Positions 20,533 through 25,156 of a DNA stretch of 64,000 nt are shown here, one piece after another (the first letter of the stretch is position 1; every line of letters begins with the position of its first letter). The stretch covers positions 3,906,001 through 3,970,000 of the forward strand of contig NZ_CP016793.1 of NCBI RefSeq assembly GCF_001701025.1, in the 5' to 3' direction. The notes under the pieces were generated by a model. The model was not told the origin of the DNA. It did no database searches and worked only from the letters and a program-made list of their open reading frames with translations. Source of the stretch: Lentzea guizhouensis. Its GTDB lineage: Bacteria; Actinomycetota; Actinomycetes; Mycobacteriales; Pseudonocardiaceae. Position numbers and translations under genes: made by a program.

Positions 20533-20641
20533 GGTGCCCCTGACGGGCACCAGAACCCGAGTGGGAGAGACCTCGACAGCTGGTCGGGGCGCCGAAGGGG
20601 CAAGCTCCCGCACACTCTCAGGCAGCAAGACCACTCGGGGT
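20533..20641 (+). promoter_or_regulatory. Glycine riboswitch (single aptamer with upstream ghost stem)
   Basis: The aptamer spans about 20555-20641. P1 pairs CCCGAGTGG (20556-20564) with CCACTCGGG (20631-20639). Inside are the conserved glycine-aptamer elements GGGAGAGACC, GGCGCCGAAGGGGCAAG and CTCTCAGGCAGCAAGACC. A 7-bp hairpin GGTGCCC/GGGCACC (20533-20539 with 20545-20551) directly upstream fits the ghost aptamer described for singleton glycine riboswitches. It lies 64 bases before gcvH. Such elements usually switch glycine-cleavage genes on when glycine is high. Confidence 0.93.
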
Positions 20642-20705
20642 AGGCAACTCTGCACGGCGGAGGGGGCGCAAGTGTCCTGACCCGTCCTGAGCCAGAGGAG
20701 TCGCC

Positions 20706-21086
20706 GTGGAGTTCCCCGAGAACCTGCTCTACACCGCCGAGCACGAGTGGGTCGACTGGACGCCGGGTACCCAGGACCCGTTGACCTGCGGGATCACCGA
20801 GTACGCCGCGGACGCGCTGGGTGACATCGTCTTCGTCCAGCTGCCCGAGGTGGGCGCGAAGGTCGTCTCGAACGAGGTCTGCGGCGAGCTCGAGTCCACC
20901 AAGTCCGTCAGCGACCTGTTCTCCCCGGTCAGCGGCGAGGTGCTCGAGGTCAACACCGCCGTCGTCGACGACCCGGCGATCATCAACAGCGACCCGTACG
21001 GCGCCGGCTGGCTGTTCAAGGTGCGCGTCGACTCGGCGGAGGGCCTGCTCACCGCGGCCAGGTACGCCGAGCTCACCAAGGACTGA
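20706..21086 (+). CDS. gcvH: Glycine cleavage system H protein
   Basis: A 126-residue lipoyl carrier protein that shuttles the methylamine group between the P, T and L proteins. The lipoylation lysine is Lys66 in [18 protein letters not shown], and the acidic [10 protein letters not shown] segment near the C-terminus is typical. The GTG start has AGAGGAG directly upstream. It is the first gene after a glycine riboswitch and is followed by a serine deaminase 32 bases later. gcvT and gcvP are not in this window, so the other subunits must be encoded elsewhere. Confidence 0.97.
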
Positions 21087-21118
21087 CCTGCATGAACCCC
21101 ACCACGAAGGACTGATCA

Positions 21119-22483
21119 GTGGCGATCAGCGTTTTCGACCTGTTCTCCGTCGGCATCGGACCGTCCAGCTCGCACACCGTGGGCCCGATGCGCGCCGCCG
21201 CCATGTTCGTCGAGAAGCTCGGCCCCCGTGTGTCCGAAGTGGACCGCGTGCACGTCCAGCTGTTCGGCTCGCTCGGCGCGACCGGCCACGGCCACGGCAG
21301 CCCCAAGGCCGTGTTCCTCGGCCTCGAGGGCAACCTGCCGGAAGAGGTCGACCCCACCGTCGCGGCGACGCGGGTCGAGGAGATCATCTCCACCGGACGG
21401 CTCCGGCTCGGCGGCACGCACGAGATCGCCTTCACCCACGACCGCGACCTTGTCATGCACCGCCGCAAGTCACTCCCGTTGCACCCCAACGGGATGAGCT
21501 TCGAGGCCTTCCGCGGCGGCGAGTCGGTCGAGCACGCCGTCTACTACTCGATCGGCGGCGGCTTCGTCGTCGACGAGAACGCGTCGGGCACCGACCGGAT
21601 CAAGCCGGACTCGACACCGTTGCCGCACCCGTTCCTCACCGGCGACGAGCTGCTCGCGCGCTGCCGCGAGACCGGCCTGTCGATCAGCGAGATCATGATG
21701 GCCAACGAGCTGTCGTGGCGCTCGGAAGAAGAGGTGCGGTCGGGGCTCCTGCACATCTGGCACGTGATGCAGGAGTGCGTCGAACGCGGCTGCACCGAAC
21801 AGGGCGTCCTGCCCGGCGGCCTGAAGGTCCGCCGCCGCGCCGCCGAGATGCGCAAACGGCTGGAGGGCGAGCACTTCGTCACCGACCCGCTGCGCGTCAT
21901 GGACTGGGTGACGCTCTTCGCGTTGGCCGTCAACGAGGAGAACGCGGCGGGCGGCCGGGTCGTCACCGCGCCCACCAACGGCGCGGCCGGCATCGTGCCC
22001 GCCGTCCTGCACTACTACACGAGGTTCGTGCCGGGCGCGTCCGACGACGGCGTGGTGCGGTTCCTGCTGACCGCGGGCGCGATCGGCGTGCTGTTCAAGG
22101 AGAACGCCTCGATCTCCGGCGCCGAGGTCGGCTGCCAGGGCGAGGTCGGTTCCGCGTGCTCGATGGCGGCGGGCGGGCTGGCCGAGGTTCTCGGCGGCAC
22201 GCCGGAACAGGTCGAGAACGCGGCCGAGATCGCCATGGAGCACAACCTCGGCCTGACGTGCGACCCGATCGGCGGGCTGGTGCAGATCCCGTGCATCGAA
22301 CGCAACGCGGTGGCGTCGATCAAGGCGATCACGGCCGTGCGGATGGCGCTGCGCGGGGACGGGTCGCACTTCGTGTCGCTGGACAAGGTCATCAAGACCA
22401 TGCGGGACACCGGCAAGGACATGTCGGTGAAGTACAAGGAGACGGCACGCGGCGGGCTCGCCGTGAACGTCATCGAGTGCTGA
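21119..22483 (+). CDS. sdaA: L-serine ammonia-lyase (iron-sulfur type)
   Basis: A 454-residue single-chain L-serine deaminase that converts serine to pyruvate and ammonia with an oxygen-sensitive [4Fe-4S] cluster. The N-terminal beta domain starts at [19 protein letters not shown]. The catalytic alpha domain carries the cluster cysteines in [16 protein letters not shown] and [17 protein letters not shown]. Length is normal. The GTG has GAAGGA upstream. It shares the glycine-riboswitch transcript with gcvH, which makes metabolic sense: excess glycine is turned into serine through the cleavage system and then drained to pyruvate. Confidence 0.96.
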
Positions 22484-22933: not shown

Positions 22934-24517
22934 TCAGAACGGCCAGTCCGCGTTCTGCCCGGCTTCGATCAACGGGATCGCCTTGAAGGTCGAGTCCGTC
23001 AGGCCGCCGAACTCGTGCCTGTTCGCCGTGCCCGTCGCGAACGCCCCCTTCTGGTACCCGTTCAGGTTGAAGCCGTAGACCGGCACGTGCCGCGGCACGA
23101 CGTCGGTCACGCGCGCGCCGTGCGGACCGCTGATCGTCTGCATGTCCGAGATGATGAACACCCGGTCGTGCCCGCGGTACGAGCTCCGCAGCGAACCGAC
23201 GATGTCGGTGCCGTGCCCGACCTCACCGATCCTCTTCAGGAACCGGTCGACCTCGCTGATGACCGAGGCCCCGCGCCGCAGCTCGTGGCGGAACACGCCG
23301 CTCGCGAAGCCGCGGATGTCGACCTGCTCGCCCTTCGCTCCCAGTGCCACGCCGAACACGGCCGCTGCCTTGGCCGGCGTGACCTTCGACCGCGCCGAGT
23401 ACGCCATGCCCGTCATCGACCCCGAGGTGTCGATGAGGATCAGCGACCGGCCCGGCAGTGCCGGCAGGTTGCTCAGCGACGCCCGCAGCGCCTGGTCGAG
23501 CGCGTGGCCCCAGCGCAGGCTCGGCGCCGTCTCGTACGCCGACAGGAAGCGGAACGGGAACTGCCGCGACCGCGCGACCTGGCCCGGGTCGGCCAGCCGG
23601 GCCGCGACCTGCGCCGCGACCTCGTCCGACATCCCGGCCTCGTCGAAGTTCCTGAGGTTCCGGAGCGCGGCCATGTACCCCATGGTCGGCGCCAGCGCCT
23701 CCCACACCTGCGCGGTCATCGGCCCCTGCAGCCACCCGGCCACGGCCTCCCACGTCATCCCGGCGCGCCGCAGCACGTCCACCGCGTCCGGGCGCCCGAA
23801 CAGCGCACGCCGCTCCTCGACCGGCCACGCCATCAGCTCGCGCCGTGCCCGGAAGGTCGTCAGCGACTCCGGCACGGCCACGTCCGCGTCCCGGCGGCGG
23901 TCCAGCACGTGCTGGAACAACTCGCCCTGCCGGTCGGCGACCGGCGACGGGTGCACGAGGTTCAGCACGTCGGCCACGCGGAAGCCGCGGGCGTCGCTGT
24001 CCCACTTGAGGACCGAGCGCTCGTCGTAGAGCCGCCGCACCGCGTCCGCGATGCCGCGCTTGACCGGCTTCGGCACGTTCCGCCCGTGGGTCGCCGTCCA
24101 GTAGGCCAGCAGCTCACCCGGCTCGTCCGCGCGCTGCAGCACCGACGCGATGACCGCGCGGTTCGTCACGCCCGTGTCGGCCTTGGCCTCCAGGCGTGCC
24201 TTCACGAACTCGGCGGCGCCGACCAGCGACGCCGTGCGCATGTTCGCCTCGGTGCGCAGCCACGCCAGCATCCGGGCGGTCCACTCGGGATCCTGCAGCG
24301 CCGCCGCGTGCACGAGCTCGGCGTACCGCTCGTCGCGCGCGCCGCCTGCCTCGTAGAAGGTCTTCTCGCCGCCCATGTTCGACACGGCCAGCAGGAACAG
24401 CTCGCCCTGCACGGTGCGCTCGTACCCGTCGCCGCCCTCGCGGGTGCGGCCCGCGCGCTGCGAGGTGATCGGGCTCTTCCCGAACGGACGGGCCTTCAGG
24501 ATGTTGAACTTCGACAT
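22934..24517 (-). CDS. rsr: Ro60/Rsr-type Y-RNA-binding protein (TROVE + VWA)
   Basis: A 527-residue bacterial homologue of the Ro60 autoantigen. Residues about 15-340 form the TROVE/HEAT-like ring that holds single-stranded RNA ends in its pore and Y RNA on its outer face. Residues 355-527 form a von Willebrand A-like domain with a complete metal site: Asp363, Ser365 and Ser367 in LIDTSGSM, the threonine in GHGTDIVGS, and the aspartate in ISDMQT. In Deinococcus, Rsr works in rRNA maturation, RNA decay with PNPase, and stress survival. The ATG at 24517 has GAGGGGGAAG upstream. Four Y-RNA-like modules lie directly upstream on the same strand, the nearest ending about 23 bases before the start, so RNA and protein partner are encoded together. 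Confidence 0.95.
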   Translation of the reverse strand: MSKFNILKARPFGKSPITSQRAGRTREGGDGYERTVQGELFLLAVSNMGGEKTFYEAGGARDERYAELVHAAALQDPEWTARMLAWLRTEANMRTASLVGAAEFVKARLEAKADTGVTNRAVIASVLQRADEPGELLAYWTATHGRNVPKPVKRGIADAVRRLYDERSVLKWDSDARGFRVADVLNLVHPSPVADRQGELFQHVLDRRRDADVAVPESLTTFRARRELMAWPVEERRALFGRPDAVDVLRRAGMTWEAVAGWLQGPMTAQVWEALAPTMGYMAALRNLRNFDEAGMSDEVAAQVAARLADPGQVARSRQFPFRFLSAYETAPSLRWGHALDQALRASLSNLPALPGRSLILIDTSGSMTGMAYSARSKVTPAKAAAVFGVALGAKGEQVDIRGFASGVFRHELRRGASVISEVDRFLKRIGEVGHGTDIVGSLRSSYRGHDRVFIISDMQTISGPHGARVTDVVPRHVPVYGFNLNGYQKGAFATGTANRHEFGGLTDSTFKAIPLIEAGQNADWPF

Positions 24518-24539: not shown

Positions 24540-24724
24540 AAAAGGGGAGCGCACAACCACAGATGTGTCCGAGATCAAGTCGCAGAAGGAATGTTGCTGC
24601 TCTGCCGGTTGAGCTACAGCCGGACGAACGAATCCGGCTGGCGGGACTCGAACCCGCAACCTGCCCATTAGGAGTGGAAGTAACCCTCGGCTTCGCACCG
24701 GACACATGTGAAGTTGTGCGCTCC
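24540..24724 (-). ncRNA. Y-RNA-like module A with permuted tRNA mimic
   Basis: The 5' and 3' ends pair as a long helix: GGAGCGCACAAC (24724-24713) with GTTGTGCGCTCC (24557-24546), extended by ATGTGTCC with GGACACAT, and then TTTT. Inside are a T-arm with the canonical TTCGAGT loop (24640-24661), an acceptor-like 7-bp stem AGCCGGA/TCCGGCT capped by an 8-base loop (24618-24639), and a D-arm GCTC-loop-GAGC (24599-24614). In RNA order the T-arm comes before the D-arm, so the tRNA is circularly permuted, as in YrlA-type bacterial Y RNAs. The conserved module motifs CGGTGCGAAG and TTGATCTCGG flank the mimic. It is the module nearest to rsr. Confidence 0.85.
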
Positions 24725-24789
24725 CGAGATCAAGGTCGCGGACGGCTTTGCGTTTTGCAGACGAAGTATCCGACCGCTTCGCACCGGGT
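24721..24789 (-). ncRNA. Y-RNA-like module B, short, lacking the tRNA mimic
   Basis: This module has the same conserved 5' motif (CGGTGCGAAG...GATACTTC) and 3' motif (TTGATCTCGG) as its three neighbours but only about 20 bases between the two halves of the internal stem. The internal stem GCGGTCGG/CCGTCCGC differs in sequence from the others but keeps pairing at seven of eight positions, which is compensatory change and supports a real RNA structure. CCCG/CGGG closes the ends. A good promoter lies just upstream. Its 3' strand may overlap the first bases of module A, so the exact ends are uncertain. Confidence 0.6.
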
Positions 24790-24792
24790 GCA

Positions 24793-24821
24793 CATATATG
24801 TAACCACGCCCCGCCACTCAA
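24793..24821 (-). promoter_or_regulatory. Promoter in front of Y-RNA module B
   Basis: On the minus strand TTGAGT (24821-24816) and TATATG (24798-24793) are separated by exactly 17 bases. Transcription would begin at about 24786, at the first base pairs of module B. A stem-loop at 24812-24835 overlaps the -35 box and is followed by TTTT on the plus strand. Confidence 0.55.
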
Positions 24822-24833
24822 TTTTATGAGCGG

Positions 24834-24995
24834 CGTTTTCCACACGTGCCCGAGGTCAGGATCGCAGAAGGTCCATTTGTCGGGCGCTCACCGGACTGAG
24901 CCACCGCCGGTCTCCCGGCGGGCGGGACTCGAACCCGCACCTCCCGATCCCCGTGAAGTATCCCTCTACTTCGCACCGGACACGTGTGGAAGACG
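24834..24995 (-). ncRNA. Y-RNA-like module C with permuted tRNA mimic
   Basis: The ends pair over 18 positions, 24978-24995 with 24834-24851 (TTCCACACGTGTCC with GGGCACGTGTGGAA, one G-U pair). The internal stem GTAGAGGG/CCTTCTGC follows. The tRNA-like part has T-arm GCGGGTTCGAGTCCCGC, acceptor-like stem CCGCCGG/CCGGCGG closed by a GAGA tetraloop, and D-arm GCTC-AGTCCGGT-GAGC. The order T-arm, capped acceptor, D-arm is the permuted order. Its 5' end abuts the 3' end of module D. Confidence 0.85.
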
Positions 24996-25120
24996 TGCGG
25001 CCCGAGATCAAGGCGCAGAAGGTGACTGCCCACCGGAGTGGGCGAAGAGCCGGACTGGCCGGCCTTCAGGAGTCGAACCTGAGATACCGAAGTAACCCTC
25101 TGCTGCGCACCGGGCCTGCA
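24996..25120 (-). ncRNA. Y-RNA-like module D with permuted tRNA mimic
   Basis: This is the first module of the array. Ends pair as TGC-A-GGCCCG (from 25120) with CGGGCC-GCA (ending at 24996). The internal stem GCAGAGGG/CCTTCTGC is complete with one G-U pair. The T-arm is TCAGG-TTCGACT-CCTGA, the acceptor-like stem GCCGG/CCGGC has a five-base loop, and the D-arm is GCCC-ACTCCGGT-GGGC. It is shorter than A and C between the stem and the T-arm. A TATGAAT at about 25121-25127 on the minus strand could be its -10 box. Confidence 0.8.
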
Positions 25121-25156
25121 TTCATACAACCACGGCACGCAAGCGCTTTTTGAACC

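Follow-up and report, generated by a model that had tools for sequence, protein, structure and literature searches.

A candidate Y RNA beside a Ro gene of Lentzea guizhouensis with a permuted tRNA-like anatomy and a changing anticodon-like triplet

The Ro gene and the modules upstream of it

The DNA analyzed here (the window) is a 64,000-nucleotide stretch of the 10-Mb, one-contig genome of Lentzea guizhouensis. On its minus strand lies a gene for a Ro/TROVE-VWA protein of 527 amino acids (22934..24517), which most likely starts at the ATG at 24517, preceded by GGGGGAAGAG, and stops at 22934; the list of open reading frames places the start at a TTG at 24556 instead. The protein scored 61.2 bits against the Pfam TROVE model (cut-off 23), gave profile matches to D. 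radiodurans Rsr, Xenopus Ro, and human Ro60, and carries a DTSGSM motif in the Ro alignment. Its structure was predicted with a pLDDT of 72, and all 13 Foldseek matches of this model at E ≤ 0.001 were Ro or TROVE structures. The gene product is a true Ro with a TROVE domain, the Ro fold, and a VWA domain, in keeping with an earlier note on this DNA that had described Y-RNA-like genes beside a Ro gene, and it is predicted to bind Y RNA. The TROVE domain and the Ro fold are common to this protein and the Ro60/Rsr proteins, including the Ro60 of Thermus phage phiLo; sequence identity to the solved Ro structures among the Foldseek matches is 14-25%.

Within the genus, 22 of 24 genomes gave some Ro match, 20 of them complete or almost so (two contain an in-frame insert and one is in two frames) and two with fragments; the other two genomes gave no match. 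In L023 (genome G001), the insert spans about 390 codons (contig C40, about 99865-101027) and lies within the conserved GYMALLRNLRNFDE stretch of Ro, and an insert is likewise found in L024/L028 (G012). The G001 insert matched LAGLIDADG_3 (45.8 bits) and, below the cut-off, Intein_splicing, and is probably an intein. A second Ro gene of the window genome (G000:C1:665130-666776) has its own short Y RNA and tRNA-like Y RNA upstream, around 664,900 (L002, L004, L166; loop CUGCAAA, Cys-GCA), and two tRNA genes lie just behind it on the minus strand (666834-666906 and 667003-667074). A third, more distant TROVE-like frame (G000:C1:2095281-2096330; 45% identity over residues 24-224) resembles frames in five other genomes of the genus. 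A placement of RtcB next to Ro was rejected, RtcB being located elsewhere (G000:C1:332606-333697).

Upstream of the co-directional and intact Ro gene of the window, four Y-like modules (M1-M4) occupy about 600 bases of the minus strand; the earlier note had likewise read four same-strand modules before a TROVE gene, which it called D, C, B, and A in this order. The distal module, M1 (24999-25116), has a T arm and two further hairpins, and M2 (24845-24983) is YrlA-like, with T and D arms and an extended helix at about 24835-24996; neither has an anticodon arm. M3 (24723-24788) is a short Y RNA-like module without a tRNA-like part, and M4 (24567-24703, with an outer helix reaching to 24546-24724) is a tRNA-like Y RNA adjoining Ro. 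Every module carries GGTGCG(A/C)AG...GG(T/A)TACTTC and, on the 3' side, CTTGATCTCGG or a close variant; M3, which had already been singled out as divergent at these shared boundary motifs, departs from the consensus in the CCTTCTGCG part. The conserved stem motif near the ends of the modules appears to resemble those of Deinococcus and vertebrate Y RNAs. Vertebrate Y RNAs are not known to have a tRNA-like domain.

Two further details of the earlier description stood in part. Compensatory stem changes, which it had claimed among the modules generally, were seen by eye mainly in M3, whereas M2 and M4 have a G-U pair or a mismatch there. The exact abutment claimed for the two distal modules (24995/24996) corresponds to the extended outer helix of M2, which begins at the M1 end; the modules do not otherwise abut. 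Possible promoter parts lie on the minus strand before M1 (TGGTTGTAT, 25124..25132) and before M3 (GTGGTTACAT, 24798..24807), each with GTGGTT in 20 of 20 aligned loci by eye, and neither sigma-70 promoters nor simple terminators were found at the locus.

Single-sequence folding of the modules was weak evidence when taken alone, given z-scores against shuffles of −3.0 (M1), −1.3 (M2), 0.1 (M3; 0.13), and −1.4 (M4). The 183-nt stretch around M4 (24542-24724) gave a z-score of −6.2. A permuted T arm, sealed acceptor, and D arm were found in M4, in M2 by alignment, only partly in M1, and not in M3. The tRNA-like modules that had been expected in these Y-like genes are present, and conserved with covariation as described below, with the exception of M3. 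The Rfam YrlA model (RF02553), suggested beforehand as a check, matched M4 (37.1 bits) and M2 (33.4 bits), both scores being below the gathering score of 69, and no match was listed for M1 or M3. ARAGORN found no tRNA in the window.

M1, M3, and M4 stand at similar distances before Ro in all 20 loci aligned from the genus. The only one of these with an intact M2 is that of the window genome; the other 19 loci have three modules, and in the nearest relative (L006) M2 is reduced to its 3' part, so that a comparison of copy number recovers the array in relatives but not four members as the norm. Twenty-five named loci were scanned for the motifs upstream of Ro, with some undercounting (e.g., in L052 and L050). 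The scan gave three modules in 12 of 14 Lentzea-type loci and three modules plus far matches in the remaining two, one or two modules in Saccharothrix, Amycolatopsis, and Streptomyces, six in Nocardia araoensis, and none in the truncated L057. Outside the genus, the shared core consists of a short M3-like Y, about 23 bases, an M4-like Y, and then Ro. Given that three modules are usual in Lentzea and that other relatives have arrays too, the array is not surprising in itself, contrary to the expectation that a multi-member array would be unusual. Several Ro particles with different RNA adaptors, as had been suggested, are possible.

Further T-arm Y modules were observed about 150-450 bases after the tRNA-mimic Y in one genus of family f15 (L091-L100), where arrays of three or more look common. 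At L165 (G006:C2:1174000-1176500), a Y array is kept and unrelated sequence follows the first Ro codons, in a genome without a Ro match. Decay of the Y genes after Ro loss in this genome was considered and rejected, with 5 of 229 otherwise invariant sites changed compared to 0-6 in 18 others and 38 in L006.

Anatomy and loop of M4

Two features of M4 were absent from the earlier note, namely an anticodon-like arm and the turnover of its triplet. The arm (24664..24678, minus strand) consists of UCCA (24678-24675), the loop CUCCUAA (24674-24668), and UGGG (24667-24664), with CCU as the loop triplet (24672-24670; Arg-CCU). Alignment and structure place, within 24599..24657 on the same strand, a T arm (24657-24641), an acceptor hairpin closed by a loop (24640-24617), U8-A9 (24616-24615), and a D arm (24614-24599). 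Between the Y stem and the T arm, where the Rfam YrlA model has no hairpin, M4 reads CCA-CUCCUAA-UGG and then GC-AGGUU, with tRNA spacing from the anticodon arm onward. The order of parts is anticodon arm, variable loop, T arm, acceptor, and D arm, and to judge from sequence comparison M4 very probably carries a complete circularly permuted tRNA anatomy on a Y stem.

For the structural alignment (A2), 15 of 97 modules without a clear 3' motif were excluded and 47 of the 57 remaining host modules were used; the listed host modules among L090-L100 and all 25 phage modules were left out. When a fixed 32-pair structure was laid on these 47 M4-type relatives, 98.5% of cells were paired. Doubly changed pairs numbered 16 (shuffled mean 10.4) and doubly changed cells 192 (shuffled mean 60.4), which supplies the covariation in relatives that the earlier note had asked for. 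The Y-stem helices 1 and 2 were paired in 100% and 97.3%, respectively, and helices 4-6 (T arm, acceptor, and D arm) in 97.5-100%. This degree of pairing and the excess of doubly changed cells, together with the recurrence of M1, M3, and M4 across the genus loci, argue that the modules are not due to chance.

The closing pair of the anticodon helix was AU in 40, GC in 6, and UA in 1 of the 47 relatives, and the other pairs of this helix gave no covariation in the same set. With nine bases left free, 96 matches were obtained, of which 87 had a Watson-Crick closing pair (shuffled mean 45; 0 of 20000 as high), a count that is partly biased because the set includes loci first found by a pattern favoring A31/U39. 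In these 96, U33 was present in 67 of 67 host copies and 23 of 29 IMG/VR copies, and A38 in 65 of the 67 host copies.

After in silico re-ordering, ARAGORN called a tRNA in 47 of 47 relatives, in 0 of 470 shuffles, and in 3 of 47 sequences kept in native order. Of the re-ordered calls, 45 carried the loop's own triplet, one was right but split by an alignment gap, and one was in another register. The control is imperfect in that two of seven arm-less Y RNAs, M2 among them, were also called tRNA. By the criterion of a linear cloverleaf with an open acceptor end, M4 is not a tRNA. In energy folding, the median probability of the anticodon closing pair was 0.015 (above 0.5 in 1 of 47), compared to 0.85 in 61 real tRNAs, and the T arm (0.29) and D arm (0.55) of the M4 type were underrated as well. 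Given that energy folding does not favor the anticodon hairpin, the case for it is comparative, and its formation would require tertiary contacts or Ro.

Origins by direct copying were also considered. M4 as a recent copy of one tRNA was rejected, the best real tRNA being 74% identical to re-ordered M4, and an 82.6% match of the paralogue RNA to tRNA-Cys is probably spurious, stemming from a 23-base entry kept in the tRNA list. Copying of the whole anticodon arm is not favored in Lentzea because the stem stays CCA/UGG while the loop changes.

The arm was collected in 97 distinct copies (63 bacterial and 34 from IMG/VR or phages), obtained from 101 arms by dropping 4 that were out of register and re-registering 2 by hand. 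These copies, which are not independent in the triplet and loop tests, hold 34 loops and 28 triplets, with the form CU-NNN-AA in 86 and U36 in 65. Given that pairing and U33 were both required for collection, neither is evidence within this set. On a tree of the Ro genes of 20 Lentzea, in which 5 of the 17 inner branches have good support, the triplet changed at least 11 times. Position 34 took 9 steps, the most of any RNA-core column and as many as one flank column, and position 35 took 7, the same as one D-loop column; the most variable of 125 columns among the 47 family sequences is a D-loop column. L013 and L017 differ in 2 of 7 loop columns and 2 of 129 other columns, L001 and L006 in 2 of 7 and 21 of 129, and L007 and its sister L009 in 5 of 7 and 10 of 129, with L007 gaining an exact Pro-UGG loop. 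At the level of aligned sequences, these data show a loop that stays tRNA-like while its triplet swaps quickly between species.

Real-tRNA loops for comparison were taken from 66 distinct ARAGORN entries of the window genome, two of them unparsed. Of the 34 distinct Y loops, 19 are identical to one of 53 real loops, where 12.4 were expected with columns drawn independently (P 0.0004); the result was weak for hosts alone (14/24, P 0.024), and the phage set gave 10/18 (P 0.013). Additionally, 25 of 28 triplets are among the 43 anticodons of this genome (P 0.0008), and A34 occurs in 2 of 97 copies. G37 was found in 5 of 9 Y loops with G36 and in 0 of 88 without it, the corresponding counts for real loops being 11/14 and 2/39. 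The G36 loops Arg-CCG, Arg-UCG, Leu-GAG, and Leu-CAG keep A37 against this rule; L237, which is not one of the 97, combines G37 after U36 with an A-C closing pair, and L236 has C37. At position 32, the window loop itself departs from the real Arg-CCU loop. Taken together, M4-type loops mostly follow tRNA rules. In the same genome, ARAGORN listed several divergent extra tRNAs (L108-L164), e.g., a second Asp, Gln, Pro, and Leu, besides the normal set.

Occurrence in other bacteria and in phages

The M4 pattern was present in all 20 genomes of the genus with a full or nearly full Ro and in one of the four others (Fisher P 0.002). With seven loop bases free, M4 relatives were found in 51 of 390 genomes of the family, spread over 6 of 46 genera, and with nine bases free in 18 of 397 order genomes, two of them doubtful (L101, L102). 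A third pattern matched 6 of 246 class genomes, the window genome included. These samples overlap, the order and class sets with the family and order sets; a reversed-pattern control matched 1 of 390 family genomes and none in the order and class samples.

In IMG/VR, the pattern with nine free bases matched 50 contigs, which are unsorted and may include prophages or bacterial pieces. A Y motif lay upstream in 34 of them, and the 16 without it were not counted as Y RNAs. By bare count, the Y arrays of five IMG/VR contigs hold two different anticodons. Ro-like proteins were found in 97 of 50,697 phage records, and Ro stands among tRNA genes in 6 of 10 actinophage loci (GiJojo, pSt2308, BRock, Alone3, Neville, and Atuin). 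Anticodon-like loops were read in the Y RNAs of Quantum (Gln CUG), VanLee (Arg UCU), BRock (Ile GAU), and Neville (Ser GCU); the other actinophage Y RNAs among the 10 loci gave no clear loop of this kind. In phage Kela, an RNA ligase gene precedes Ro, and no Y RNA was seen within the 330 bases examined.

In 4 of the 10 actinophage loci (GiJojo, Alone3, VanLee, and Frankenweenie; L228, L242, L243, L245), the tRNA annotation deposited immediately before Ro overlaps the Y RNA. These annotations are probably false calls of tRNA finders, and annotators should be aware that deposited phage tRNAs before Ro can overlap Y RNAs.

Possible roles and relation to known RNAs

YrlA is a circular permutation of tRNA (PMC11472068) and has D, T, and acceptor arms (PMC8394870). 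PNPase binding and modification by DusA and TruB have been described for Salmonella or RYPER (PMC8394870). Like M4, YrlA (RF02553; Salmonella structure PDB 6CU1) lies beside Ro/Rsr and has a long end stem with a permuted T arm, sealed acceptor, and D arm, and neither a Y RNA beside Ro nor permuted mimicry of tRNA is new. M4 differs in adding an anticodon-like arm, canonical spacing, and a triplet that turns over, and in reaching 37 bits where the gathering score is 69. No description of an anticodon arm or of its turnover in a bacterial Y RNA was found in the literature searched (including PMC9569102 and PMC7824862), and the novelty of the M4 arm is provisional because four central Y RNA papers fall outside that literature. 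Among other stable RNAs with a partial tRNA fold, tmRNA (PMC8394870) keeps its acceptor end and enters translation, whereas the M4 acceptor is closed by a loop. Phage tRNAs, which are proposed (PMC10264068) and for two systems shown (PMC11555353) to counter tRNA-cleaving defenses, anticodon nucleases among them, are likewise tRNA-shaped RNAs, and phage Ro genes often sit in tRNA clusters; these are true tRNAs, whereas M4 is permuted, sealed, and tied to Ro. A whole tRNA fold with a shifting anticodon would make the function of the tRNA-like domain of bacterial Y RNAs testable.

With about even confidence, we read M4 as a Ro-held tRNA impersonator that most likely serves as a decoy or bait for anticodon-cleaving enzymes. 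The locus would be transcribed to yield a set of Y RNAs for the adjoining Ro, and the tRNA-like part of M4 would join the Y stem at the point that corresponds to the step from position 26 to 27 of a tRNA. M4 should not be chargeable because it has no CCA end. Linkage and conserved motifs suggest that Ro holds M4 as a particle, which may present the anticodon loop of a chosen tRNA to enzymes acting there, most likely anticodon nucleases; phage copies would have the same role against host enzymes. Mimicry of tRNA identity, rather than a neutral loop, is probable. A role as nuclease decoy or bait, to which we give slightly less than an even chance, is suggested by the turnover, by the loops' adherence to tRNA rules, by the setting of phage Ro genes in tRNA clusters, and by the proposal that the YrlA domain might competitively inhibit an anticodon nuclease (PMC7790460). 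The same source reports that in Salmonella YrlA itself is not cleaved by the nuclease, which counts against the decoy reading. If M4 is a decoy, Ro RNPs would be tied to bacteria-phage conflict over tRNA cleavage. More tentatively, Ro-bound, sealed, permuted tRNA copies could be a swappable bait in Actinobacteria and their phages, with the anticodon changed quickly to match the attacked tRNA loop. The Ro particle would thereby absorb or sense anticodon nucleases, and a phage array carrying two different anticodons would amount to a small panel of baits.

Rather unlikely, in our estimate, is an ordinary YrlA role in which the tRNA-like domain gates Ro or tethers PNPase, and the arm is a tRNA relic whose flanks are kept for shape while the triplet drifts freely. 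Y RNAs have been described as tethering PNPase and gating Ro (PMC8394870, PMC7790460), D-loop columns and position 35 vary at similar rates, and the arm is mostly absent from Ro-adjoining Streptomyces Y RNAs. However, free drift accords poorly with the rarity of A34, the coupling of G36 and G37, the enrichment of exact real loops, and the five-base switch of L007 to an exact Pro-UGG loop.

The loop could alternatively make M4 a sponge or substrate for other tRNA-handling factors (modification enzymes, or synthetases reading the anticodon loop), tuning their activity, which we consider improbable. Most loops have U36-A37 and five have G36-G37, the bases read by position-37 enzymes. Such a role would also fit the modification of Salmonella YrlA by DusA and TruB (PMC8394870), but it gives no clear reason for the fast swapping of the triplet. 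The location of M4 raises a further improbable alternative, namely that it is mainly part of the Ro mRNA leader, where Ro binding would control Ro synthesis: the extended M4 helix stops at 24546, some 15 bases short of the ribosome site, and the M4-Ro spacing is similar in 20 of 20 loci, but a leader would need neither the tRNA anatomy nor a changing triplet. A leader role is compatible with M4 as a tRNA impersonator, and the two are not exclusive.

Elsewhere in the window, on the plus strand (20552-22483), a glycine riboswitch (65.1 bits) is followed by genes for the glycine cleavage H-protein and serine dehydratase.
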